Positions 2,620 through 20,227 of a DNA stretch of 35,839 nucleotides are shown here, piece after piece. This DNA is from Holdemanella biformis DSM 3989 (GTDB taxonomy: Bacteria; Bacillota_I; Bacilli_A; Erysipelotrichales; Erysipelotrichaceae). Location: the NCBI RefSeq assembly GCF_000156655.1, contig NZ_DS996844.1:1-35839 (forward strand), read 5' to 3'. Made by a program: the position numbers and the translations under genes. The notes beneath the pieces were generated by a model. The model worked only from the letters and a program-made list of their open reading frames with translations, had not been told where the DNA came from and made no database searches. Within the stretch, counting starts at the first letter, position 1, and each line of letters opens with the position of its first letter.

Positions 2620-3293
2620 ATTAATTTTGAAAAGTTATGATCCAAAATACTTTCAACCTCAGAATACGATTGATTCTTTAACGAAGCCACCATCGTAATT
2701 TCATTTTTCAAAGCAGCCATATAATCGTCACTATCAATAGCCCATTTCACAGCTTCAATACCATCGGATTCCATAAGTAATTTATCCATAGATATTTGTT
2801 TTACTAAATGCGTTACTTCCTCTTCTTTTCCGATTGAAGGACCAATCGTGAAATAAGATACCACCTCATCATACTCTTTGACATAATCCATACATCCATA
2901 CCAATGTACAACATATGTATTTGGATATTTACGAATCAATTCAAGTATCGTTTTTTCCTGACCCTTTGTATGAAGAATAACGGGTTTATTTAATGCTTGT
3001 GCAAGCTGAAGTTGTTTTTCAAATACTTCTTTTTGAATTTTTAAATCTACATCACACCATACACTATCCATGCCAATTTCCCCTATAATGGGTGCCTTTT
3101 TTAACAAAGGAAGCATAGATTCAAAAGTATCTAAACTTGCATTCCAAGGATGTACACCACAAGAATAGAACAACTGCTTTTGTTGGACAAGTTCAAATTC
3201 TTTTTCATTTGCGACGTTACAAATCCCAGAAATATCATATTCATTCTGTAGCGCATTTATTTCTTTTGAATAATGATAATGTGCATCATGCAT
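2610..3293 (-). CDS. TatD-family metal-dependent hydrolase
   Basis: A 227-residue TIM-barrel hydrolase of the TatD group in the amidohydrolase superfamily. All metal-ligand motifs are visible in order: HYH near the N-terminus, GVHPW, GEIGMD, a His in VILHTKG, a His in VVHWYG, and an Asp in MESDG. It is shorter than typical TatD (about 255-265). I prefer the ATG at 3293, which has AAGG at normal spacing; a GTG at 3302 overlaps that site. It overlaps the end of the ABC ATPase gene by 8 bases, so it is translated with the TPP-riboswitch operon. TatD proteins are usually described as DNases, but this context suggests a small-molecule role in thiamine-precursor salvage (inference). The barrel class is certain; the substrate is not known. 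Confidence 0.85.
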   Translation of the reverse strand: MHDAHYHYSKEINALQNEYDISGICNVANEKEFELVQQKQLFYSCGVHPWNASLDTFESMLPLLKKAPIIGEIGMDSVWCDVDLKIQKEVFEKQLQLAQALNKPVILHTKGQEKTILELIRKYPNTYVVHWYGCMDYVKEYDEVVSYFTIGPSIGKEEEVTHLVKQISMDKLLMESDGIEAVKWAIDSDDYMAALKNEITMVASLKNQSYSEVESILDHNFSKLIKK

Positions 3294-4020
3294 GATTTTC
3301 ACCTTTTAATAATTCATAGACCTGTTTTTTCAAAACACTCTGAGAAAATAACCAATCTCTTGATTTCTTTTCTTTCGATAAATCAATTTCCTGCAAAATA
3401 CGACTTGGCTTATTCGATAAAATCAAAATACGATCCGATAGATATAAAGCTTCATCAATATCATGTGTAACTAATAAAGTCGTACGATTATAATTCTTTC
3501 TTAATTGTAACAACCAATCTTGCATATCATTACGCGTGATGACATCCAAAGCTCCAAATGGTTCATCTAATAAAAGAATATCCGCTTTACATAAAGAAGT
3601 CCTTAAGAAGGCTGCCCTTTGGCGCATTCCTCCTGAAAGACTAGAAGGATATGCATTTTCATATCCAGAAAGGCCAAATGTTTCAAATTCTTTTAAAGCT
3701 CTTTGTTTCATAGATTTATCATGATTGATTTCACCATATAAACATACATTATCTAAAATGGTTCTCCATTCCAGCAACAAATCATTTTGTGGCATATACG
3801 CAAAATGAGAGCTGACACCTTTAATACGTTCATCATCCACAAAAAGCTGTCCTGAATAATCTTCAATTAATCCGGCTAATATATTTAAAATAGTAGATTT
3901 TCCACAACCACTCGGACCTAGAATGGAAACAAATTCTCCTTCTTGAATAGAAAAAGAAATATCGTGCAATATTTCTTTTCCAGAAAATTCAAGATTTAGT
4001 TTTTCAACCTGTAGCTTCAT
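3286..4020 (-). CDS. thiZ: ABC transporter ATPase, ThiZ-type
   Basis: A 244-residue ATPase that would power import of a thiamine precursor. Motifs: Walker A GPSGCGKST (35-43), Q-loop MPQND (76-80), signature LSGGMRQR (128-135), Walker B ILLLDEP (148-154) and the H-loop VTHD. It belongs to the nitrate/sulfonate/taurine-type subfamily that pairs with NMT1-like binding proteins. Its ATG overlaps the binding-protein stop by one base (TAATG), so the two are translationally coupled. The thiZ assignment comes from the TPP riboswitch at the head of the operon plus the NMT1-type binding protein; from the ATPase alone one could only say ABC importer. Confidence 0.85.
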   Translation of the reverse strand: MKLQVEKLNLEFSGKEILHDISFSIQEGEFVSILGPSGCGKSTILNILAGLIEDYSGQLFVDDERIKGVSSHFAYMPQNDLLLEWRTILDNVCLYGEINHDKSMKQRALKEFETFGLSGYENAYPSSLSGGMRQRAAFLRTSLCKADILLLDEPFGALDVITRNDMQDWLLQLRKNYNRTTLLVTHDIDEALYLSDRILILSNKPSRILQEIDLSKEKKSRDWLFSQSVLKKQVYELLKGENHA

Positions 4021-5018
4021 TATTTTACAAACTCATTTGTATATTGGTCTTTCGCATCGATCTTGTGATCAATCAATCCTGTTTCATACATAAAATCTGT
4101 ATAATTATCCCATACAGAATCTTTCATAACACCCCATGAATCTGCATCTTTTGCATATTGGCTACTTAAGTATTTTTGGCTTTCCTTAAGGAATTTCAAA
4201 TCTGTATCTGTCAGAGCATCATCATGTAAAATTTCAGCTGCTTTACTTGGATGATCAATCGCATATTCATATCCTTTTTTAGTAGCTTCCATAAATTTTT
4301 GAATTGTATCCGAATTCTTTTTAATCATTTTATTGTTTGTGATAATTACTGGAGTATAGTAATCCAAACGGCTATCTAAATCAGCTAGAGGCATATAGTT
4401 TAAATCATATCCATCTTGTAACGCTTTAATAATAGCCCAACCATAGAATTCCCATCCTAGGTTCACTTTATTCTTTCCTACTTCATCACTAAGTCCTGCA
4501 ATACCAGATCCGTCTGATCCTACAATGTTTAATTTACTAAAATCAGCACCCGCTTCATTCATAACCGCTTTAATAACGGCTTCTTCACTTGGTGCTCCCC
4601 ATCCTGCATATGTCTTTCCTTCGAAATCCTTTACAGAATTGATGTTTGCGCTCTTCAAAGAAACAAATCCAGAAGTATTATGTTGAATAATTGTCGCAAT
4701 CGTTTTAATTGGAAGTGGATCTTCACTTGTCAAGGCATATGTAACATCTTCCTGATAAGAAACACCAAAATCAGCTTTTCCGGCTGCAACCATAGAAGTT
4801 GTCGCATTATCACCTGGTTCAATAATATCTACATCTAAACCAGCTTCTTTATAATACCCCTTGTTTTTTGCCACATAAAAACCAGTGTGGTTTGTGTTTG
4901 GTGTATAATCCAACATCAGTGTAACCTTAGTCAATTTGTCATCTGAATTTGATGTTTGAGCACAACCAACTAAGCTTAACGCTACAGCAGCTGCACACAT
5001 TGCTTTTAAAATTTTCAT
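4020..5018 (-). CDS. thiY: ABC substrate-binding lipoprotein, NMT1/ThiY-type
   Basis: A 332-residue extracellular binding protein of the NMT1/THI5-like family, predicted to bind a pyrimidine thiamine precursor (HMP or its formylamino derivative). It begins with a lipoprotein signal peptide whose lipobox LVGC places the lipidated Cys at residue 19. The mature part starts with the family pattern LDYTPNTNHTGFYVAKNKGYY, followed by GADFG-like and PSEEAVI-like elements. The start at 5018 is fixed by AAGGAGAAAG upstream and by the signal peptide; a longer frame back to 5117 only reads through the permease gene. It overlaps the permease stop as ATGA. Ligand identity rests on the riboswitch and family, not on visible binding residues. 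Confidence 0.88.
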   Translation of the reverse strand: MKILKAMCAAAVALSLVGCAQTSNSDDKLTKVTLMLDYTPNTNHTGFYVAKNKGYYKEAGLDVDIIEPGDNATTSMVAAGKADFGVSYQEDVTYALTSEDPLPIKTIATIIQHNTSGFVSLKSANINSVKDFEGKTYAGWGAPSEEAVIKAVMNEAGADFSKLNIVGSDGSGIAGLSDEVGKNKVNLGWEFYGWAIIKALQDGYDLNYMPLADLDSRLDYYTPVIITNNKMIKKNSDTIQKFMEATKKGYEYAIDHPSKAAEILHDDALTDTDLKFLKESQKYLSSQYAKDADSWGVMKDSVWDNYTDFMYETGLIDHKIDAKDQYTNEFVK

Positions 5019-5776
5019 TTTCTTTCTCCTTTTCGTAAATGTGGAAACAATATCTTTTCCAATAAAGACACCCCTAAATTCAATAGGATGCTCCAAAATA
5101 TAATCATCAATACACACGCAAAAACTTTATCTAACATATACCCATTTTTTACACGAAGCATATAATAGCCAAGTCCTGCTCTACTTGAAAGCCATTCACC
5201 TACGATAGCTCCGCCAACACAATAAGTAGCCGCTACTTTTAATCCTGAAAATAAGCCAATGGCACCAGAAGGAATCTTAACAATTTTATAGATTTGAAAT
5301 AGATTGGCACCGAAACTTTTTAATAAATTGATTTCTTTTTCACTCACTTGCGACAACGCATCCGTAAAGGATATCGCAATCGGAAAAAAGCACATAAATA
5401 TAACAATCAACACTTTGGGCAACAAATCAAACCCAAACCAAATTGAAAACAAAGGTCCTAAAACCATAATAGGAACGGTTTGTGTCACAATCAAATATGG
5501 ATAAATACTTGTCTTAAATGTTTTGGATAAATCCATGCCAATGGAAATCACAATCGCAAAGAAAGTACTAATCAATAGACCTAAAACAGATTCTTCCAAT
5601 GTAACAAGCGAATGTTGCATCAAAATATCCATATTCTCAATAAGTGCACTGATAATTTTTGATGGACTAGGCAAAATATAAAGTGAAATATCAAATGCAC
5701 GAACATATAATTCCCATCCACCAATCACTAGAATAAACACAAGCAACGGCATGACAATTCTACGATTTTTCTTCAT
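5015..5776 (-). CDS. thiX: ABC transporter permease, ThiX-type
   Basis: A 253-residue inner-membrane permease of the binding-protein-dependent transport family with about six hydrophobic segments. A cytoplasmic EAA-like loop (LLKSFGANLFQIYKIVKIPSG, read around residue 150) would contact the ATPase. It is the first gene after the TPP riboswitch and terminator, with a strong AAAGGAGG ribosome binding site at about 5782-5789. The next gene overlaps its TGA by four bases. Together with the binding protein and ATPase it forms a complete importer. The TGA stop here, inside a tight overlap, also shows that TGA is not a sense codon in this organism. Confidence 0.87.
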   Translation of the reverse strand: MKKNRRIVMPLLVFILVIGGWELYVRAFDISLYILPSPSKIISALIENMDILMQHSLVTLEESVLGLLISTFFAIVISIGMDLSKTFKTSIYPYLIVTQTVPIMVLGPLFSIWFGFDLLPKVLIVIFMCFFPIAISFTDALSQVSEKEINLLKSFGANLFQIYKIVKIPSGAIGLFSGLKVAATYCVGGAIVGEWLSSRAGLGYYMLRVKNGYMLDKVFACVLMIIFWSILLNLGVSLLEKILFPHLRKGERK

Positions 5777-5795: not shown

Positions 5796-5820
5796 TAAAA
5801 AAGGCACCCTAGAGTGCCAC
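5796..5820 (-). terminator. Riboswitch-controlled intrinsic terminator
   Basis: On the minus strand GGCACT-CTAG-GGTGCC (six pairs, one G-U) followed by TTTTTTATTTTG. It lies between the TPP aptamer and the first transporter gene, so it is the expression platform: thiamine pyrophosphate should favour termination. Confidence 0.88.
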
Positions 5821-5831
5821 TATCAATCGAT

Positions 5832-5901
5832 ATGACTCCCTACGCTAGAATTAACCAGATCAGGTAATAAGGGTTTTTCTCAGCAATTGCACCCCTGTCA
5901 T
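5832..5901 (-). promoter_or_regulatory. TPP riboswitch (thi box)
   Basis: The minus-strand sequence carries the conserved thi-box blocks in order: CAGGGGTGC, GCTGAGA, ACCCTT, ACCTGATCTGG and GCGTAGGGA. The ends ATGAC and GTCAT close helix P1. It binds thiamine pyrophosphate and, with the terminator just downstream, should repress the importer operon when TPP is plentiful. This is the main evidence that the ABC transporter and TatD gene belong to thiamine metabolism. Confidence 0.97.
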
Positions 5902-5923
5902 GTATGTTTTTACTTGCCTAAAG

Positions 5924-9926: not shown

Positions 9927-9936
9927 GACTTCACTT
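9911..9936. terminator. Shared bidirectional terminator hairpin
   Basis: Perfect 10-bp inverted repeat AAGTGAAGTC-GATTAA-GACTTCACTT containing the stop codons of both convergent genes. The minus strand is followed by a TTTAAATT run, the plus strand by ATTAATTT; efficiency looks better on minus. Confidence 0.75.
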
Positions 9937-11862
9937 ATTAATTTCTAATACGGCATGATACGCATCTTTAAATGCATCTAAGGCAATACCCGCTTTTTTA
10001 CAATCACCAACAATGTATGTAGGAATACCTAAATCTGTATACATACTTGTATCATTTGCCTTTGATCCTACAGCCATAATGACACTATCATATGGATATT
10101 CTTTGCCACTGGCAACAACTGCATGATCATCAATTTTTTCAACAGTTGCACTTGTTTCTATTGTGATTGGCATTTGTGCCATCGCAAATTGAGCCGTAAT
10201 TTGACGCAATGGTCCTAGATCCTGTAAAGCTTTTTCTTTCATTTCTAAAACAGTGACTTTCTTTTGTCTTGCAGCCAAGAATTCTGCTGTTTCAAAACCA
10301 ACAAGACCACCACCAATAATGACTACATTTTCGCCTAGTACTTCTACTTTTTCACTCAATACATCATGTGCAACAATGGCTTTTTCACTACCTTCAATTG
10401 GAAGTACAAATGGACTAGATCCAATCGCAACAATGAGTGCATCTGGCTTAATTTCTTCTAGCATTTCCTTAGTAACAACAGTATTTAAGTGCACCTCAAT
10501 TCCAGATTCTTGAACATCCAAAATCATTTTATCTACCGCATTCTTAAAGTCTTTTTTAGCTGAAATCGCTCCGGCCAATAAAAATTGTCCACCAAGACTT
10601 TCACTCTTTTCAAATAAAATTGGTGTATTACCTGTTTCTTTTAAATCTAGAGCTGCTTCCATACCTGCAATTCCACCACCTAAGATGACAACTTTTTTAG
10701 AAGCAGATCCAGGTTTTAAACCTAATGTATCCTCTTCTAATAAGCCAGGATTTCGCATACAAGTAATGTGTTTAATAGCTGGATTATATAAGGATGCACA
10801 GAATGAGTCATAACAACCTTGGTTACATCCGATGCAATAGCGAATTTGATTGACTTTACCAGCTCTAGCCTTATTACAGAAGTTGGCATCGGCAAGTTGA
10901 GCACGTGCCATGACAACTAAATCGGCCTTGTCATCTTCTAAGATTTTTTCGGCAAATTCAGGCGTATTGATACGTCCACATGGCATTGTCAACATACCTG
11001 TTTCTTTACGAATGCGCGCAGCATCTTCTACGTTAAATCCATTTTCAATATCAACTGGTGCCACTTCATATAGTGTTGCTGCCGTTAAGATATTTCCACG
11101 ACTAATATTTAATACATCAACACCGCATTCTTTGGCATCTTTGCAGAATTCAATCACTTCTTCTATTGTTAGTCCACCATCTAACATATCATCATGACAA
11201 TCCACACGCATGAATAGTGGCATATCTATTGGCATATTGGCACGAATCGATTTAATACATTCCAACGGGAATTTTTTACGATTTTCAAAAGATCCACCCC
11301 ACTCATCACTTCGATGGTTAATTCCACCTGAAAGCATAGAGTGTGGTAAATAGTTATGTGCACAATGGAATTCTAAACAATCAAATCCAGCTTCTACTGC
11401 ACGCTTTGCAGCTTGTCCAAACTTATCTATTATATCGAGTAATCTTTCATTTGTGATAGCTGGCACGGTATATTGTGGACTTAATGGTAAGTCATTGGGT
11501 ACTAAAATCTGAGCTGTTTGATCTGAAGCTACTGCTAATCCTCCTTGCCATAATTGAATGCAAGTTTTTCCTCCGGCTTCATGCACGGCATCATTTAATT
11601 TTTTAAATCCTGCAATGTATTTGTCTTCGGCAATCGACAAGAATCCAAAAGGTGCACTCGGGGCATCTACACTTGTAACTTCAATTGTATTTAATCCATT
11701 TCCACCTTTAACGCGAGCTACATGATACGCAATCAGCTTATCTGTAACACTTTTTCCATCTTCACTTTCCGCACTTTCATGCGTTCCCATCGCAGACATG
11801 ACAACACGATTTCTTAATTCCATACCACGAATCTGTATAGGTTCAAACAACTTGTCAAACAT
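9931..11862 (-). CDS. OYE-type NADH:flavin / 2,4-dienoyl-CoA reductase-like enzyme
   Basis: A 643-residue three-domain flavoenzyme. Residues 1 to about 330 form the FMN-binding Old Yellow Enzyme barrel (FEPIQIRGMELRNRVVMSAM at the start; HCAHNYLPH active-site region). Next comes a 4Fe-4S cluster site near 342 (CIGCNQGC, with a further Cys in CMRNPG). The C-terminal half has two dinucleotide folds, VVILGGGIAGMEAALDL and VVIIGGGLVGFETAEFL. This is the layout of 2,4-dienoyl-CoA reductase, trimethylamine dehydrogenase and the bile-acid enzymes BaiCD/BaiH. An AAAAGGAGGAG ribosome binding site supports the start. The substrate may be an enoate or enoyl-CoA; nothing nearby fixes it, and no bai genes are present. 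Confidence 0.9.
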   Translation of the reverse strand: MFDKLFEPIQIRGMELRNRVVMSAMGTHESAESEDGKSVTDKLIAYHVARVKGGNGLNTIEVTSVDAPSAPFGFLSIAEDKYIAGFKKLNDAVHEAGGKTCIQLWQGGLAVASDQTAQILVPNDLPLSPQYTVPAITNERLLDIIDKFGQAAKRAVEAGFDCLEFHCAHNYLPHSMLSGGINHRSDEWGGSFENRKKFPLECIKSIRANMPIDMPLFMRVDCHDDMLDGGLTIEEVIEFCKDAKECGVDVLNISRGNILTAATLYEVAPVDIENGFNVEDAARIRKETGMLTMPCGRINTPEFAEKILEDDKADLVVMARAQLADANFCNKARAGKVNQIRYCIGCNQGCYDSFCASLYNPAIKHITCMRNPGLLEEDTLGLKPGSASKKVVILGGGIAGMEAALDLKETGNTPILFEKSESLGGQFLLAGAISAKKDFKNAVDKMILDVQESGIEVHLNTVVTKEMLEEIKPDALIVAIGSSPFVLPIEGSEKAIVAHDVLSEKVEVLGENVVIIGGGLVGFETAEFLAARQKKVTVLEMKEKALQDLGPLRQITAQFAMAQMPITIETSATVEKIDDHAVVASGKEYPYDSVIMAVGSKANDTSMYTDLGIPTYIVGDCKKAGIALDAFKDAYHAVLEINK

Positions 11863-11934: not shown

Positions 11935-11967
11935 AAAAGAAAAAGAGCTGTCATTCTTTGACAACTC
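11935..11967 (-). terminator. Terminator of the SCIFF operon
   Basis: Minus-strand hairpin GAGTTGTCA-AAGAA-TGACAGCTC (9 pairs, one G-U) followed by TTTTTCTTTTG. It contains the TGA stop of the decarboxylase-family gene. Confidence 0.85.
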
Positions 11968-13279
11968 GTACAGTTTCAATACCATAATATTTCATGACTT
12001 CAACAGAAGACTCACCAATCACTTCACCTGGAATCACTGGAAGAATCGCTGGAGGACAAGATACAGAAACACTGGAGCATACTTGTCCTAAAGATTTAGA
12101 AACTTCTATCATTGTACTTGGCGCAAATAAAGCTTGGCGTACACTCATTACTTTTCTTGCACGTTCTAATTTATGAAATGAATTAAATACAACAGATTTC
12201 CGTTCAATTTTACATAAACATGTCTCTAATCGTTTTAAGTCATCCTTCGTATTATACGGAGATGGCATTAATACAATATAGTCTGAATCATAGAATTCAG
12301 GATAGATATCACATTCCATTAAAAAATTTGCGATTTCATTTCCAGTATAGCCAAACTCTTTCGTTGAAATCGTAATCTTCATAGGTTCACCAGATAAAAT
12401 CGTATATCCATGTTGAATCAAAGCATTCTTTAATACATCAACTCTTTGAATACATTCAGACAAGGATTTTTTAAACGTAGTATCCAACACCTCATTTGCA
12501 GCATCTAAAGATGCCATAATCAAATAGGATGGACTTGTGGAAGAAAAGTATTCCATAAAATGTTTTACGTCATTTTTCCATACTTGATTCAAAGAATCAC
12601 TTAAGTGTAAATAAGCTCCCCCTGTAAGTACAGGTAGTGTTTTATGAGCCGAATCACAACATAGATCAGCTCCCAAATCAATAGGATGTAAAGATGGTTC
12701 TAAAAAACGAAGATATGCACCATGGGCATTGTCTATGGCAAGTAATACATCATGCTTTTTACATATCGAAGCTAGAGATTTAATATCCAAAAGGTTTCCT
12801 AAATAGTCTGGATTTGTCAGATATACAGCCGTTGGATTGTTTTCAACAATTTCCTTTTCCAAAGTTTCTGTACTAATCGTACAAGATAAATAATCACTAT
12901 TTCCATATAGCCATTCAATCTCAAAATCTAAAAGTGCAGCAGCATGAATAAAGCTTCTATGGGCATTTCTTCCTGCAAGAATTTTAGGCTTCTTGCCTTT
13001 ACTTTTGGCATCTTGGCATAATATCGTGCACATCGTTTGAATACATAAAGTAGAGCCTTGCGTTGAATAATAGGTTGGACAGCCAAATAAAGAGGAAGCA
13101 TTTTGTTCACTTTCCTTAATGATTCCCTCTGCCGCAAACAACTCATCGGCTCCATAAATTTCTGTAAGATCCATTCCTTCAAAACCAAGAATGCCACAAC
13201 CTTTATGGCCTGGCATATGCATTCTTACAGGTGATTTTTCTTGATACGATTTAAGAAAATTAACAATCGGCGTCTTCAT
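11951..13279 (-). CDS. Orn/Lys/Arg decarboxylase-family PLP enzyme
   Basis: A 442-residue fold-type I PLP enzyme of the bacterial Orn/Lys/Arg decarboxylase group (SpeA/YaaO-like). Signs: HMPGHKG near 21-27, IYGADELF near 41-48, the cofactor-contacting AIDNAHGAY near 181-189, and the Schiff-base lysine in DSAHKTLP (Lys213). A C-terminal PxxPPAxxPVIPGE-like segment near residue 410 is also typical. It would make a polyamine precursor such as agmatine or cadaverine, but substrate choice is not readable. The first 20 bases overlap the end of scfB, so expression is coupled to the SCIFF maturase. The ribosome binding site is weak (GAAAGAAAA), consistent with coupling. Confidence 0.88.
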   Translation of the reverse strand: MKTPIVNFLKSYQEKSPVRMHMPGHKGCGILGFEGMDLTEIYGADELFAAEGIIKESEQNASSLFGCPTYYSTQGSTLCIQTMCTILCQDAKSKGKKPKILAGRNAHRSFIHAAALLDFEIEWLYGNSDYLSCTISTETLEKEIVENNPTAVYLTNPDYLGNLLDIKSLASICKKHDVLLAIDNAHGAYLRFLEPSLHPIDLGADLCCDSAHKTLPVLTGGAYLHLSDSLNQVWKNDVKHFMEYFSSTSPSYLIMASLDAANEVLDTTFKKSLSECIQRVDVLKNALIQHGYTILSGEPMKITISTKEFGYTGNEIANFLMECDIYPEFYDSDYIVLMPSPYNTKDDLKRLETCLCKIERKSVVFNSFHKLERARKVMSVRQALFAPSTMIEVSKSLGQVCSSVSVSCPPAILPVIPGEVIGESSVEVMKYYGIETVRVVKE

Positions 13280-14654
13280 GACTATTTTCTTTCATATCAC
13301 GAATAATGGCTACGGCAAGTGCACACTCTAGTCGTTTACAGAATAGTTCACACCCCTCTTTGTATACACCTTTGACAGATCCTGTCGCATGATATGCATT
13401 GGCTGCACATCCTCCAGAACAATAAAGTCTTGCCCAGCAATCTGCACATTCTTTACGTGCATATACATTACATGATGCAAATTCATTCTGGATCTTTTTG
13501 TTTGTGACACCCGTATAAATGTCTCCTAATTTAAAGGCTTCTTCTCCTACAAACTGGTGACAAGGGTACAAATCTCCCCATGGTGTAACGGCCATATATT
13601 CAGTTCCTGAACCACATCCTGAAATACGTTTATAAATACATGGTCCGCCCTTTAAATCAATCATATAATGGTAGAAAGTAAATGGATCTTTCTTATCGTC
13701 ATAATCAAGCATCAACTTTGCTAAATCTTCATATTGTTTCATAACAATTTCACGATCTGCCTTTGTTAGTGCTGCAGGATCATCTGACTTGGCAACCACA
13801 GGTTCCATACTTAATTCTCTAAAACCTAAATCTAACATTTGTTGCACATCTTTTAAGAAATCTGGATTGGCATGAGTAAAAGTACCACGCATATAGTAAT
13901 TTTTACCTTCACGAGCCTTTACTAGCTTTTGGAACTTAGGAACGATCGTATCAAAACTTCCCTTACCAGAATAATCCACACGATAACGGTCATGCACTTC
14001 TTTACGTCCATCTAAGCTTAATACAACGTTGCTCATTTCTTTGTTCGCAAATTCAATTACGTCATCATCAATCAACATACCATTTGTCGTTAATGTAAAG
14101 CGGAAATTCTTTCCGGCTTCTTTTTCAATGCTACGAGCATAGGCAACTAATTGTTTAACCACATCAAAGTTCATTAGTGGCTCTCCACCAAAGAAATCTA
14201 CTTCTAAGTTTCTGCGTGTTCCTGAATTTTCCACTAAGAAATCAAGAGCGCGTTTTCCTGTTTCAAAACTCATTAATGCACGGTCCCCATGGTATTTTCC
14301 TTGGCTTGCAAAACAATAAGAACAATTCAAGTTACAAGTATGGGCAATATGAAGACATAAAGCTTTAATAACGCCACTTGTCTTAGCTTTTAATTGGCCT
14401 GCCATAGGTTCATATGTATCTTCACTAAACAAACGACCTTGTTCTTTTAATTCTAAGATTTGATCGTAACATTCTTCTAATTCAGATGTTTCTACACTAG
14501 GATATTTCTCCTTCATTTCTAAAACCAAAGCATTTTTATCTTTATCTAAAAATTCAGCAATCATATCATAAGCAATTTCATCTACCGCATGAATACTTCC
14601 TGAACAAATATCCAATACAATATTCTGATTAAACATCTTATACTGATGAATCAT
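13260..14654 (-). CDS. scfB: SCIFF peptide maturase, radical SAM/SPASM
   Basis: A 464-residue radical SAM enzyme that installs thioether cross-links in the SCIFF precursor (ranthipeptide maturation; the studied homologue is CteB). Order: N-terminal peptide-recognition region (MIHQYKMFNQNIVLDICSG start), radical SAM cluster CNLNCSYC (Cys107, 111, 114), GGEPL at 156-160, and a C-terminal SPASM domain with many cysteines (347, 365, 395, 403, 406, 412, 416, 435, 439) for two auxiliary 4Fe-4S clusters. A GAGGAGG site eight bases before the ATG supports the start. The precursor gene lies 81 bases upstream and two hairpins separate them. Length and pattern match the SCIFF maturase family throughout. 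Confidence 0.96.
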   Translation of the reverse strand: MIHQYKMFNQNIVLDICSGSIHAVDEIAYDMIAEFLDKDKNALVLEMKEKYPSVETSELEECYDQILELKEQGRLFSEDTYEPMAGQLKAKTSGVIKALCLHIAHTCNLNCSYCFASQGKYHGDRALMSFETGKRALDFLVENSGTRRNLEVDFFGGEPLMNFDVVKQLVAYARSIEKEAGKNFRFTLTTNGMLIDDDVIEFANKEMSNVVLSLDGRKEVHDRYRVDYSGKGSFDTIVPKFQKLVKAREGKNYYMRGTFTHANPDFLKDVQQMLDLGFRELSMEPVVAKSDDPAALTKADREIVMKQYEDLAKLMLDYDDKKDPFTFYHYMIDLKGGPCIYKRISGCGSGTEYMAVTPWGDLYPCHQFVGEEAFKLGDIYTGVTNKKIQNEFASCNVYARKECADCWARLYCSGGCAANAYHATGSVKGVYKEGCELFCKRLECALAVAIIRDMKENSHEDADC

Positions 14655-14680: not shown

Positions 14681-14730
14681 AAATGCTGCCTTAAAGGCGG
14701 CATTAAAAATGCCGAATCACTTCGGCATTT
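14681..14730 (-). promoter_or_regulatory. Tandem hairpins between scfA and scfB
   Basis: Two adjacent minus-strand hairpins. The first, AAATGCCGAA-GTGA-TTCGGCATTT (14707-14730), is a perfect 10-bp stem followed by TT. The second, TGCCGCC-TTTAA-GGCAGCA (14684-14702), has one mismatch and ends in seven T. The 3' arm of the first (GGCATT) can also pair with the 5' arm of the second (AATGCC), so the two can be mutually exclusive with a middle hairpin. Both look like partial terminators that would make the peptide more abundant than its maturase. Confidence 0.7.
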
Positions 14731-14735
14731 CTTAA

Positions 14736-14888
14736 TTACTTACTTTCTTTATTATTTTCGCAAGCTTGGTTCGCGATTCCGCAGCTAGTTTTACAAGCTG
14801 ATTGGCAAGAAGTTTGGCATTCTCCACATCCACCATTTTTTGCGCTTTCACACAAGTTACGAGTATCTACTGTATTAATATGTTTCAT
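14736..14888 (-). CDS. scfA: SCIFF ranthipeptide precursor
   Basis: A 50-residue cysteine-rich peptide precursor, six-cysteine-in-forty-five type. The core has the hallmark CGECQTSCQSACKTSC (Cys21, 24, 28, 32, 36) with a sixth cysteine at Cys43; the leader starts MKHINTVDTRNL, which the maturase recognises in this family. An extra cysteine, Cys13, lies in the leader, so there are seven. The radical SAM enzyme ScfB would link core cysteines to other residues by thioether bonds. Start: GGGGGT nine bases upstream. A consensus promoter lies 31 bases ahead of the ATG and a hairpin follows the stop. The family is near universal in Clostridia and its function is still unclear. Confidence 0.96.
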   Translation of the reverse strand: MKHINTVDTRNLCESAKNGGCGECQTSCQSACKTSCGIANQACENNKESK

Positions 14889-14918: not shown

Positions 14919-14947
14919 ATTTTAACACGCCAACCAAATAATATCAA
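14919..14947 (-). promoter_or_regulatory. Promoter of the SCIFF operon
   Basis: Minus-strand TTGATA, a 17-base spacer and TAAAAT, with TGT just before the -10 (extended element). Transcription would start about 24 bases before the scfA ATG. One of the best promoter matches in the window. Confidence 0.8.
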
Positions 14948-14978
14948 ATTAAAAAGGCATTCCGAAGAATACCTTTTT
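14946..14978 (-). terminator. Terminator of the MMPL operon
   Basis: Minus-strand AAAAAGGTATTC-TTCG-GAATGCCTTTTT (12 pairs, one G-U, TTCG tetraloop), running into TTTTTAATTT. It separates the MMPL operon from the SCIFF promoter. Confidence 0.9.
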
Positions 14979-14981
14979 AAA

Positions 14982-17348
14982 CTATTTAGAACTTTCTTCC
15001 TTAGTACGGAATACGTAACGACTCGTTACTGTAGCACCTTCTGGAGCACCAGAGTATGAAGCATATTCTTTATTCATAGCTTTGATTTCATTCATTACAC
15101 TTTGTAACGTTTCAAGTTCTCCAACACCTAAATCAACCTTTTCTTTTAATTGATCCAATCCTTCAGACTTGAATTGTTCATTACCCTCATACAATTGTTT
15201 AGCACCATCATTCAATGTTTCAAATGCCTTACCCAATGTATCTAATCCGTCAGCCATTTCATTAAATGTTCCACTCTGTCCAGCAAGTGTTCCAGTTGCA
15301 TCTGATAATGCACTAGCTCCACCATTTAATGTAGCATTGTTGGATGTTAATTTATCAATTCCATTATTTAATGCAACAATTCCTGGAGCAGTTTGTTTAT
15401 TCAATTCTTCTAGTCCTTCATCTAGTGATGATACCCCATCAGAAACATCTATTGCTCCATCTTTCAACTTTTTCATAGATGGCTGAAATTTATCCAAAAT
15501 TGTTTTCATTTTTTCTGCATCTGTAGTAGATGTTTCTAAAGTCTTTTGCATTTCCTTTAATTTTGCTGATGCATCATCCACCTGTTTTTTCAAGCCACCC
15601 AAAATTTCTTTATTTGCTTTAATCTGTTCATCTAATGGATCCAATGAATTTTTTAAAGTAGAAATTAAAGAGTTTAATTCCTTAACTTTATCCGAAGTTG
15701 AAGTTAATTCTGTTAACGTATTTAAATCGTTAATTGAATCAATTGCAGTCAATTCATTATTTAAATCAATTACATAAGAGTCTAATTTGTAAGCTTCTTC
15801 GTCTTTTCCTTCTGCACTCAAATCTGCTTGAGCCTGTTTGATTGTTGTAATTGATGACGTAATTGATGATTTTAAACTACTTTTTACTGCATTGATTGCT
15901 ACTTGATCATCTCTAATGGTTGCATTGTTATTTGCTACAATTTGATTATTATTCATCTCAGTTGCAACTATTTCAGATAAAGCCTGGTTTAATTGTTTCT
16001 CAGTACTTTCTAATCCAGCCAAAGAAGTATTCGCAGCTTCAAGAGACTTACTCATTGCACTTAAAGTATCCTTACCTTTTCCTAAAGCCTCAGACATTTT
16101 ATCTAGTTCTGTTATTGAATTAGTCAAGGTTGTGTTTAATTCTTCTGTTGTAGTAAAAACCCCTTGCCCGTAAAGAGCATTATATAAATTATTCAATCCT
16201 TCAGAAACAGAATTTGCTCCATCTTTTAAGCTTTGCTCTTTTCCTTCTTGTACTTTCGAAACTCCTTCATATGCAGTTTTAACACCTGAAGAAATACCAT
16301 ACATTGCCTTTGCGTTTACACCTAAAGTATCCACACCATTTGTATAAGCAGTTAAACCTGTTTGTAAGGCTTTAACACCATCATTTAATTGGATAGCACC
16401 TGCAGATAATTGTCTCACTTGATCAGATGAGCCTGTTAATGGAGCAGCTTGTTCTTTTAATTGTGTTGTTCCATCATACAATTGTTTAGAACCATCGATC
16501 AATTGATCATCCGCTTCAATTAATTGATCAATTCCATCTGTTAATTCAGATACAGAACCAATTTCACCTAATTCACTTGCCAAATCAATTTCATTTGTCA
16601 TACCAACCATGATAGAACCTAAATCAAAATTATTGACATCCGCTTCTACTGTTACATCATCACTGATTCCTAATTGATTGTTTACTTTATCTAAACCTGC
16701 AGATCTTAATGTTTCATTCAAGCCTGGAATATTCGCAAATGCCAACATTTCATTTGTTCCATCATTTACGATCTTACCAGATTCACACTTCACATTTGTA
16801 AAGTTACCAGTACTCATATTCAACATACCACCAGCTAAATAACTAGGGTGAATCACAATGGATTTTCCATTAATATTTTTTACTTCTGAATGGTTATTTG
16901 TGAAAGAAATAGTTAATTTCAAATGACCAGACTTACCTTCCATATCTTTTGCAGACATTTCCTGACCATCTAATTCATAACGAAGCTTAACAGACACAGG
17001 AAGTTGTTTTGTGGCTGTTCCTTCATAATACACATCATTTCCTTTCGCATTCCATGTATATGTATTTCCATTTTTTGAAGGTTTTTCATTTGATTTAATG
17101 TTCTTAACATCTGTTAAGTTTAAAGTTTCTTTAATATTATTAATTCCATCCTCATCATGTAACCAGCTAGATACGATTGTATCGCTAATAGAACCATCTG
17201 AGTTTAATACAGAATAAACAGTTTCTGTTTTTTCTGTAGGATTTTCATCATTATTTTGTGCAAATACAGTCACAGGCATCATACTTCCTGCCATAACTGC
17301 ACTCAACACTACACTACCAACTACTTTTACTGTATGACTTAAATTCAT
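14982..17348 (-). CDS. Secreted LxxG-heptad coiled-coil protein (YhgE/Pip-like)
   Basis: A 788-residue exported protein. It starts with a signal peptide (MNLSHTVKVVGSVVLSAVMA, cleavage likely after VFA near residue 31). A beta-rich domain follows (about 35-250), then long regions of xxxLxxG heptads, for example LIDGSKQLYDGTTQL and LNDGVKALQTGLTAYTNGV near 275-330 and a second block near 635-745, with a coiled coil of about 250 residues between. This layout resembles the extracellular part of YhgE/Pip proteins, but the C-terminus has no membrane helices. The start at 17348 has AAAGGAG upstream and lies two bases after the MMPL stop, so the two are co-translated. It probably works outside the membrane with the MMPL partner. 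Confidence 0.82.
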   Translation of the reverse strand: MNLSHTVKVVGSVVLSAVMAGSMMPVTVFAQNNDENPTEKTETVYSVLNSDGSISDTIVSSWLHDEDGINNIKETLNLTDVKNIKSNEKPSKNGNTYTWNAKGNDVYYEGTATKQLPVSVKLRYELDGQEMSAKDMEGKSGHLKLTISFTNNHSEVKNINGKSIVIHPSYLAGGMLNMSTGNFTNVKCESGKIVNDGTNEMLAFANIPGLNETLRSAGLDKVNNQLGISDDVTVEADVNNFDLGSIMVGMTNEIDLASELGEIGSVSELTDGIDQLIEADDQLIDGSKQLYDGTTQLKEQAAPLTGSSDQVRQLSAGAIQLNDGVKALQTGLTAYTNGVDTLGVNAKAMYGISSGVKTAYEGVSKVQEGKEQSLKDGANSVSEGLNNLYNALYGQGVFTTTEELNTTLTNSITELDKMSEALGKGKDTLSAMSKSLEAANTSLAGLESTEKQLNQALSEIVATEMNNNQIVANNNATIRDDQVAINAVKSSLKSSITSSITTIKQAQADLSAEGKDEEAYKLDSYVIDLNNELTAIDSINDLNTLTELTSTSDKVKELNSLISTLKNSLDPLDEQIKANKEILGGLKKQVDDASAKLKEMQKTLETSTTDAEKMKTILDKFQPSMKKLKDGAIDVSDGVSSLDEGLEELNKQTAPGIVALNNGIDKLTSNNATLNGGASALSDATGTLAGQSGTFNEMADGLDTLGKAFETLNDGAKQLYEGNEQFKSEGLDQLKEKVDLGVGELETLQSVMNEIKAMNKEYASYSGAPEGATVTSRYVFRTKEESSK

Positions 17349-17350
17349 AT

Positions 17351-19432
17351 TTATTCTCCTTTCGCTTCCATGTTTGATTCTGGCCAATTCTTTGTCGTCT
17401 TTTCGATGAACTTGTGGCAGAAAATCAACAATGAAGGTAATACCAATAAAATACTTACGACTGAAATTAAAGCACCACGTGCTAATAAAATGACTAATGA
17501 TTTAATTAAATCCATCTTAGCTACAAAGCTTACACCGATACATGCGGCAAAGAATGAGAATCCACTTGTCATAATGGAAACACTCGATTTTTCCATCGCA
17601 ATCAAAGCCGCTTCCTTAACCTTCTTACCATGCGATAACTCTTCTTTAAAACGCGTTGTCATTAGGATAGCGTAGTCAACGGTAGCTCCCAATTGAATGG
17701 TTCCGATAACCATACTTGCGATAAATGGAAGTGTAGTTTTTGTAAAGAATGGAATACCCATATTGATCGTAATCGCAAATTCAATTGTTAGTACTAAAAT
17801 GACTGGAAGTGCAAATGATTTAAATGTTAAGGCAACAATGATAAAGATCATAATGACTGATAATACGTTAACCATCGCAAAGTCTGTATTTGTTGTTGTG
17901 ATCAAATCACGTGTCATACTTCCTTCTCCACCAATCATACCCTTTTTATCATATTTATGAATGATGGTATCCATTTTATCTAACTGTGTATTTAATTCGT
18001 TTGTTGCAGCTTTATAATCACTGTTCACAACAATTAATTTCTTTCCACCATTTTGGAAAATATCCTTTACTACACTTGGAGTAAAGTTAGATGCAAGTCC
18101 TGGACCTACAAATTCTTCATAAGCCAATACATTATGAATTCCTTTTAAATCTTTGATTTCAGAACACATATTCTGAATTTCGTTTGTCGTTAATTTGTCA
18201 TCCACTAAAACGAAATGTGTTGTTGTCATATCAAATTTATCTTTTAACTGATTTGTACCAATGATACTCGCAAAATCACCTGGCATACCAGAAATCAAAT
18301 CATAATAGATATTTGTATGTGACTGTCCATATCCAAATGGAATGAAAATCAACACGAAGGCAACAAGAATCTTTTTATAGTGATGAATCACAAAACGAGG
18401 TACTCTATGTAACTCATTCAAAATTGTTTTATGTTTGTACTTTTCAATCGTCTTATCAAAGAACATCAACAAGCTTGGCAAAATAAAGATGGTTGATAAT
18501 ACACCAAGAACAACACCTTTTGCCATGACAATACCAATATCTCTACCTAGTGTTAACTGCATTACACACAAGGCAACGAAACCTGCAATTGTTGTGATTG
18601 AACTTGAAGTAATTGAAGTAAACGTAGCTTTGATAGCCTTTGCCATAGCTTCTTCATTTGGAAGTTTTTGTTTTTCTTCTTGATATCTATGTAATAAGAA
18701 GATGGAATAATCCAAAGTAACAGCTAACTGTAATACAACGGCCAAAGCCTTTGTGATATAACTAATTTCACCTAAGAATACGTTTGTACCAAAGTTATAA
18801 ACAATTGGGAAAATCATTCCTAGCATAAATACAACTGGAGCAATTGTACTCTCTAATCCTAAGAACAATACGACCATACATAATACAACCGCAATGCCTG
18901 CATAAATTGGTGTATCATGTTCTGTTTGATCTTTAGTATCTTCACTGATGGCTGACATACCACCTAAGTAACAATCATCTTTTGTATATTTTTTTATTTT
19001 ACTAATCGCATTCATTGTACGCATTGATGATGTTGGCTCTTTAAATGTAACAATCATCATTGTACTGTTGCCAGAATAAAGCATATCTTGAATGCTTTCT
19101 GGAATTGCCTGTTTTGGAACTGAAATATCTAATACATCATCTCTCCAAATACATTTTTCAACTCCATCAATTTTATTGATCTCTTCCTTAATTTTTGCGG
19201 CCTCTTGATCTGATTTATTGTTGACAACCAAGAAGTCTACACTCGATAAGTTAAAATCATCCCCAAGAATCTTTTGTGTTTTCATAGATTCTGAAGTTGA
19301 AGGTAAATAAGATAATAAATCGTAATTAATATTTGTATTGAAATAACCAATTGCGCTTGGAATTAATAGTATGATGGCTACGGCCAAAATCAAATTACGA
19401 TATTTAACTATCCATTTTGACATCTTATCCAT
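17351..19432 (-). CDS. MMPL/RND-family membrane transporter
   Basis: A 693-residue RND-superfamily protein of the MMPL type. It has two repeats, each with one leading helix (about residues 12-30 and 355-375), a large extracellular loop (about 35-165 and 380-505) and a block of five helices. The first block includes a TLDYSIFLLHRY segment with an Asp near residue 240, the second ATVDYAILMTTRF; these paired Asp-Tyr motifs are the expected proton-relay sites. The start has AAAGGTG upstream. The gene is controlled by the divergent TetR gene through an operator-covered promoter and is followed by the heptad-repeat protein. The cargo (lipid, peptide or toxic compound) is unknown. Confidence 0.92.
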   Translation of the reverse strand: MDKMSKWIVKYRNLILAVAIILLIPSAIGYFNTNINYDLLSYLPSTSESMKTQKILGDDFNLSSVDFLVVNNKSDQEAAKIKEEINKIDGVEKCIWRDDVLDISVPKQAIPESIQDMLYSGNSTMMIVTFKEPTSSMRTMNAISKIKKYTKDDCYLGGMSAISEDTKDQTEHDTPIYAGIAVVLCMVVLFLGLESTIAPVVFMLGMIFPIVYNFGTNVFLGEISYITKALAVVLQLAVTLDYSIFLLHRYQEEKQKLPNEEAMAKAIKATFTSITSSSITTIAGFVALCVMQLTLGRDIGIVMAKGVVLGVLSTIFILPSLLMFFDKTIEKYKHKTILNELHRVPRFVIHHYKKILVAFVLIFIPFGYGQSHTNIYYDLISGMPGDFASIIGTNQLKDKFDMTTTHFVLVDDKLTTNEIQNMCSEIKDLKGIHNVLAYEEFVGPGLASNFTPSVVKDIFQNGGKKLIVVNSDYKAATNELNTQLDKMDTIIHKYDKKGMIGGEGSMTRDLITTTNTDFAMVNVLSVIMIFIIVALTFKSFALPVILVLTIEFAITINMGIPFFTKTTLPFIASMVIGTIQLGATVDYAILMTTRFKEELSHGKKVKEAALIAMEKSSVSIMTSGFSFFAACIGVSFVAKMDLIKSLVILLARGALISVVSILLVLPSLLIFCHKFIEKTTKNWPESNMEAKGE

Positions 19433-19504: not shown

Positions 19505-19554
19505 TATTTTTGATTTATTTTTTTATAATTCCAAATATACAATTGTTTTAATAT

Positions 19555-19567
19555 GTTCAATCGGTCA
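19555..19567 (+). promoter_or_regulatory. Second putative TetR operator
   Basis: GTTC-AATCG-GTCA, an imperfect copy of the TGAC-N5-GTCA palindrome with the same 13-base size, upstream of the tetR start. It suggests autoregulation. Confidence 0.45.
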
Positions 19568-19596
19568 TTTTTATTTGTATTTTCTAAATTATTGTT

Positions 19597-19602
19597 TATA
19601 AT
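19597..19602 (+). promoter_or_regulatory. Putative -10 box for the TetR gene
   Basis: TATAAT 16 bases before the ATG, with TTGTAT about 16 bases upstream as a weak -35. It would give a very short leader of about 10 bases. Confidence 0.35.
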
Positions 19603-19618
19603 AAGGATGGTGATAAGC

Positions 19619-20227
19619 ATGAAAAGTAAGATAATCGAAAATAAGAAAATAAAAGAAAACAACCTCTTACAGGCTGCCTTTAATCTATTCACAAAAGAAG
19701 ACATTACGAATGTCTCTGTAAATGATATTGTAAAGAGTGCAGGCGTCGCAAAAGGAACTTTCTATCTTTATTTCAAAGATAAATACCAAATTCGCGATAT
19801 TCTAATTCAAAAAGAAGCACATCGTCTTTTTGAAGAAGCCCACAAACAATTAGAAAAAAACGATATTCGTAATTTTGAAGACTCTGTGATTTTTTTGATC
19901 AATCAAGTATTGATTCGATTAGAAAACAATCCATTGATTTTAAAATTCGTTGAAAGAAACCTATCTTGGGGCGTGTTCCATGCCCAATTAAATACGGCTA
20001 TTGATAATGATAGTTTCAATCTTATAAAAGAATTTAACGAAATCGCAACCGCAAATGGATATGAATTTGAAAATTCAGAAGTCATACTCTACTTAATAGT
20101 TGAACTTACAGGAAGTACTTGCTACAACAGTATTCTTCATAGTCAACCCCTGCCGATTGAAGAATATAAACCCATTCTTTTCGATTCTATTCGAGCTATC
20201 CTTTCTCAAGGAAAGAAAAAAAGCTAG
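19619..20227 (+). CDS. TetR/AcrR-family transcriptional regulator
   Basis: A 202-residue TetR-type repressor. The N-terminal helix-turn-helix is clear: LLQAAFNLFTKED, then VSVNDIVKSAGVAKGTFYLYFKDKYQIRD near residues 37-60. The C-terminal two thirds are helical ligand-binding and dimer region. The start at 19619 follows AAGGATGGTG; an upstream ATG at 19553 would add a hydrophobic stretch absent from the family and read through the operator. It is divergent from the MMPL operon, with palindromic TGAC-N5-GTCA sites between, so it most likely represses that operon and itself until a ligand, perhaps the transported compound, binds. Confidence 0.92.
   Translation: MKSKIIENKKIKENNLLQAAFNLFTKEDITNVSVNDIVKSAGVAKGTFYLYFKDKYQIRDILIQKEAHRLFEEAHKQLEKNDIRNFEDSVIFLINQVLIRLENNPLILKFVERNLSWGVFHAQLNTAIDNDSFNLIKEFNEIATANGYEFENSEVILYLIVELTGSTCYNSILHSQPLPIEEYKPILFDSIRAILSQGKKKS

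Follow-up and report, generated by a model that had tools for sequence, protein, structure and literature searches.

The window (the whole stretch of 35,839 nucleotides that was analysed) encodes a SCIFF precursor, scfA, with the gene for its maturase, scfB, as its neighbor, and we think it reasonably probable that the two form a functional operon for a six-cysteine ranthipeptide (SCIFF), within a Cys13/Gly37 subgroup in which a seventh cysteine acts in the leader. The peptide is a sound member of a known family, and its conserved Cys13/Gly37 variant may be new: the literature searched, in which subscription papers were mostly outside coverage, contained neither a description of this variant nor biochemistry on any Cys13 SCIFF. 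SCIFFs are present in most Clostridia, and both the role of the peptide and its bond are still disputed. The sequence-only reading called the function unknown, which is slightly outdated given the phenotype published for Clostridium beijerinckii, where disruption of the SCIFF genes lowers expression of sporulation genes and raises that of the agr locus (Chen et al., 2020, summarised in PMC8102284).

The precursor and its maturase

The translated scfA product (MKHINTVDTRNLCESAKNGGCGECQTSCQSACKTSCGIANQACENNKESK) scores 80.7 bits against TIGR03973, the equivalog model for the SCIFF precursor (cut-off 50; E 5e-23; model positions 1-43 of 43), and 82.2 bits against PF13165 (cut-off 27), with the whole model covered. 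The six family cysteines, C21, C24, C28, C32, C36, and C43, have the spacing shared by the relatives, within about 45 residues, and a ScfB maturase is encoded in the adjacent gene; scfA is the sole SCIFF detected in the genome. The initial identification of a SCIFF precursor is thus upheld by scores well over both cut-offs, as is that of a seventh cysteine in its leader, Cys13 being found beside the six family cysteines; the position first given for the gene is exact, but the strand was missing from it and is in fact the minus strand. A search of the PDB using the peptide alone returned a chance match only, and Rfam and tRNA scans gave no match at the scfA-scfB locus.

The next gene, scfB, begins 81 nt downstream of scfA. 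Its product scores 752.6 bits against TIGR03974 (cut-off 425), a threshold that no other gene in the genome passes, and it matches CteB both by sequence (5wgg, E 1e-156) and by modeled fold (Z 48.1, RRE included, with 51% identity over 440 aligned residues). Together with the N-terminal RRE it has the radical SAM motif CX3CX2C (C107, C111, and C114) and the SPASM cysteines, all of these cysteines being invariant across clades. A search for plasmid-borne scfB gave no convincing copy, the best record being chromosome-sized.

It is likely that scfA starts its own transcript, because a promoter-like site lies ahead of it and a terminator-like hairpin closes the upstream gene (Table 1); the promoter is a consensus match only, in a region with fewer such matches than its shuffles. 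Between scfA and scfB there are two tandem stem-loops, and in relatives 119 of 143 such intergenic regions contain a fold with z < -2. These stem-loops likely act as a partial terminator, which would yield more precursor than maturase.

The MMPL-family transporter, heptad-repeat protein, and TetR-like regulator upstream of scfA were not seen beside a SCIFF in other loci and are therefore probably unrelated to it. Elsewhere in the window, a flavoenzyme exceeds the cut-off for the BaiCD bile-acid model, and an ABC transporter is probably for thiamine-precursor uptake, since a TPP riboswitch precedes it.

Table 1. Features of the scfA region, with positions numbered along the window
Feature	Position	Strand	Remarks
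ABC transporter with substrate-binding protein	3286-5776		behind the TPP riboswitch
TPP riboswitch	5820-5906	-	RF00059, 67.7 bits
Flavoenzyme	9931-11862	-	BaiCD model, 977 bits (cut-off 825)
Orn/Lys/Arg decarboxylase-family gene	11951-13279	-	start overlaps scfB end by 20 nt
scfB, SCIFF maturase with RRE, radical SAM, and SPASM domains	13260-14654	-	TIGR03974, CteB match
ScfB Cys17 codon, in RRE	14604-14606	-	common in Cys13 clade
Two tandem stem-loops between scfA and scfB	14682-14732	-	T-rich sequence after each; z -3.9
scfA, SCIFF precursor	14736-14888	-	50 aa; TIGR03973 and PF13165
Gly37 codon of scfA	14778-14780	-	residue 37 is Gly throughout the window's clade
Cys13 codon of scfA, TGT	14850-14852	-	seventh cysteine, in leader; direct sequence reading
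Sigma-70-like promoter, consensus match	14919-14947	-	TTGATA, 17 nt, TAAAAT, extended TG; 31 nt before scfA start
Terminator-like hairpin	14949-14980	-	closes upstream gene
MMPL-family transporter, heptad-repeat protein, divergent TetR-like regulator	14982-19432, 19553-20227	-, +	upstream of scfA

Distribution and inheritance of the leader cysteine

A SCIFF over the cut-off is encoded in 248 of the 291 Clostridia genomes of an even draw, and Cys13 is present in 25 of the 291, or about 10% of the SCIFF bearers, as counted with a DNA pattern anchored on core residues; a looser pattern of cysteine spacing was dropped in its favor, its matches being mostly low-complexity chance. Among 315 Erysipelotrichales genomes only 11 have a SCIFF, ten of them with Cys13 and the remaining one with Cys17. 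The view that other SCIFFs have no leader cysteine therefore fails as a general statement, and Lys13 in the best-studied SCIFF, CteA, probably lies behind it; Cys13 is indeed a minority state in Clostridia, but it is not private to the window's peptide and marks a large subgroup. The best 80 relatives in named genomes nearly all have Cys13 (a share that is not a frequency, as these relatives were picked by similarity), and they come mostly from gut metagenome-assembled genomes, the labels of which are Clostridia, Oscillospiraceae, or Ruminococcus. Outside the Cys13 groups, residue 13 varies between Lys, Asn, Glu, Ala, and Ser. Leader Cys17 occurs in three further SCIFFs among the non-Cys13 peptides read from the Clostridia draw, and the loci with Cys17 in place of Cys13 (L002, L211, and L231/L240) stand on separate branches.

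On the ScfB tree the Cys13 state changes three times, as two gains and one loss. The first gain is placed at the base of the clade to which the window belongs (40 rows, support 97), and the second in a separate clade, whose members have Thr37 and an extended C terminus and within which Cys13 has changed once to Ser13 (genome G860). This Thr37 extension group comprises the loci L163-L169, L235, L242, and L114, with the Clostridia genomes G912, G754, G841, G729, G777, G799, G926, and G860; its scfA sits between a gene for a small membrane protein and a hexapeptide-repeat (gamma-carbonic-anhydrase-like) gene, which precedes secD, and its scfB is elsewhere in the genome.

Cys13 is kept in 102 of 102 distinct DNAs of the window's clade, so that the comparison proposed at the outset finds it conserved in close relatives. 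Across 97 Cys13 rows, codon 13 has switched between TGC and TGT 23 times with no amino-acid change, while the same tree carries 21 amino-acid changes at residue 14, 19 at residue 18, and 18 at residue 8; these rows were selected by their Cys13 state, and the fair measure of loss is the larger tree of 115 Gly37-type rows, on which that state changes a single time. The simplest reading is that Cys13 is held by purifying selection, because its codon keeps changing without consequence for the protein while residue 14 varies. That Cys13 is neutral or simply inherited along the lineage, with no function, seems very improbable: the variability of residue 13 elsewhere does indicate a site that tolerates many residues, but the silent record of the codon and a second, independent gain both speak against this already disfavored explanation. 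Having arisen two times and since been kept as strictly as residues of the core, the leader cysteine would offer a clean mutant for work on leader and maturase.

The ScfB tree also places Erysipelotrichales rows in four separate places among the Clostridia, which, with their patchy distribution, points to repeated transfer of scfA-scfB into this order. The decarboxylase-family gene that follows scfB seems to have traveled with them. Its product scores 119.8 bits against PF01276 (cut-off 27), and the PLP lysine motif SAHKTLP (S-x-H-K) is kept in 29 of 29 members of its subfamily. The gene comes directly after scfB in 69 of 72 loci of the Gly37/Cys13 type; where Gly37 is not accompanied by Cys13, this order is found in 3 of 14 loci, and it is absent from all 38 Thr37 loci. 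In the loci read, no decarboxylase-family gene ever stands beside a Thr37-type SCIFF, and seven other Gly37 loci have a different paralog directly upstream of scfA. All 26 Gly37/Cys13 genomes tested encode the window's subfamily, as do the three genomes in which it is linked to a SCIFF without Cys13; a search of other genomes gave distant paralogs only. In the Erysipelotrichales genomes the flanking genes vary while the three genes remain together, and the decarboxylase-family tree scatters this order over several places, matching the ScfB tree; scfA, scfB, and the decarboxylase-family gene therefore appear to be a cassette transferred among gut bacteria. The constancy of the link gives genetics a first entry point to what the subgroup does. 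We regard as quite improbable the fuller scenario in which Gly37-type SCIFFs are a mobile three-gene pathway, with a chemical role for Cys13 and a decarboxylase-family enzyme that acts on the peptide or is controlled by it.

The cross-link and the proposed role of Cys13

Reports of the SCIFF bond differ, with Cys32-Thr37 found in vitro and Cys32-Thr34 by co-expression (PMC8172795). All 213 loci read have Thr34, and 134 of them, including the window, have Gly at position 37. With this Gly, the window's peptide is barred from a Cys32-Thr37 link, which leaves Thr34, so that for the question of topology Gly37 matters no less than Cys13. The existence of a clade without Thr37 and with invariant Thr34 suggests that, of the two acceptors published, natural variation favors Thr34.

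In the characterized system, the CteA leader consists of residues 1-18 and adds a beta strand to the RRE of CteB (PMC6231123); the Aux I iron of CteB has an open site, which is filled by CteA Cys21 (PMC6231123; PMC8326336) and lies 33 Angstrom from the RRE (PMC6231123). To model the pair we used the read-through translation of the window's scfA and scfB, which share one frame, aligned with in-frame read-throughs of relatives. The model has a mean pLDDT of 84.8, with lower confidence in the core, and predicts a leader strand at residues 4-7 and a helix at 12-18 (pLDDT about 79 and 73); the model of a Lys13 pair has the strand at 4-6 and the helix at 12-17. Since both models predict a leader strand and a helix, residue 13 would, in SCIFFs of the Cys13 and the Lys13 type, come after the strand bound to the RRE and before the core.

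We propose that leader residues of about 4-7 join the RRE of ScfB as an extra beta strand, that the short helix 12-18, with Cys13 as its second residue, brings the core to the active site, and that ScfB would then, on the pattern of CteA, join Cys32 to a carbon of Thr34, Thr37 being absent. Cys13 itself would most plausibly act within the leader, as a contact or a thiol by which the precursor is positioned or handed over, and not as a new cross-link donor. Such a function in recognition of the leader or in hand-over, with the cross-link unchanged, is the one that we favor from the models, and it is also the least certain step, in which our confidence is evenly balanced. The sequence-only reading had raised altered cross-link topology or binding of a maturase cluster; this finds no support, the cluster cysteines of ScfB being identical in clades with and without Cys13 and the leader having the same predicted fold with Lys13. 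Cys13 could still be retained in the mature product, depending on where the leader is cut.

A chemical role, with Cys13 either retained as a seventh thiol or engaged in an additional thioether or disulfide, would give the subgroup a different product and would suit a residue that arose twice independently and is kept as strictly as the core cysteines. We nonetheless consider it unlikely, as residue 13 lies inside the leader by the CteA definition, Ser13 has replaced it once in the second clade, and the cysteines of the core and of the ScfB clusters are unaltered. That Cys13 briefly ligates the iron at the open site of Aux I and thereby gates the loading of the core is more doubtful. The precedent is that a peptide cysteine does fill this site in CteB; however, that ligand, Cys21, is present and invariant here, which would make Cys13 redundant, and Cys13 is placed within a helix in the models and eight residues nearer the RRE, itself far from the open site in CteB.

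In the maturase, ScfB Cys17, in the RRE, was a candidate partner for Cys13. It is found in 32 of 40 Cys13-clade rows and in 2 of 18 sister rows, most others having Asn or Tyr at this position where the window has Cys; it was rejected as a partner, being missing from eight of the 40 clade rows and from the whole second clade. A co-variation search for a partner gave none that was significant; for Cys17 significance is lost once shared descent is allowed for, the paired test being limited to three independent comparisons.

Comparison with known systems

The freyrasin precursor PapA and its maturase PapB share with the window's pair the ranthipeptide class, radical-SAM thioether chemistry, and a related maturase. 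PapA is built on Cys-X3-Asp, whereas the window's core has no Asp, and so none at X3 spacing after its cysteines; a freyrasin-type identity was rejected on this ground and on the score against the PapB model (287.9, below the cut-off of 340). The decarboxylase-family protein matches the Orn/Lys/Arg decarboxylase-family protein of S. aureus (PDB 2x3l) over its whole length, with the motifs HMPGHKG and SAHKTLP in common, but belongs to a subfamily of its own that is linked to Gly37-type SCIFFs.

A close likeness is to the thermocellin system of Clostridium thermocellum. ScfB keeps all the radical-SAM and SPASM cysteines of CteB (PDB 5wgg, 5why), and the precursor shares with CteA, the thermocellin precursor, and with Tte1186a its length, the MKHI start, Thr34, an adjoining ScfB, and the cysteine spacing C-2-C-3-C-3-C-3-C-6-C. 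It differs from both in having Gly37 in place of Thr37, and from CteA in having Cys13 where the latter has Lys13 (PDB 5wgg chain B).
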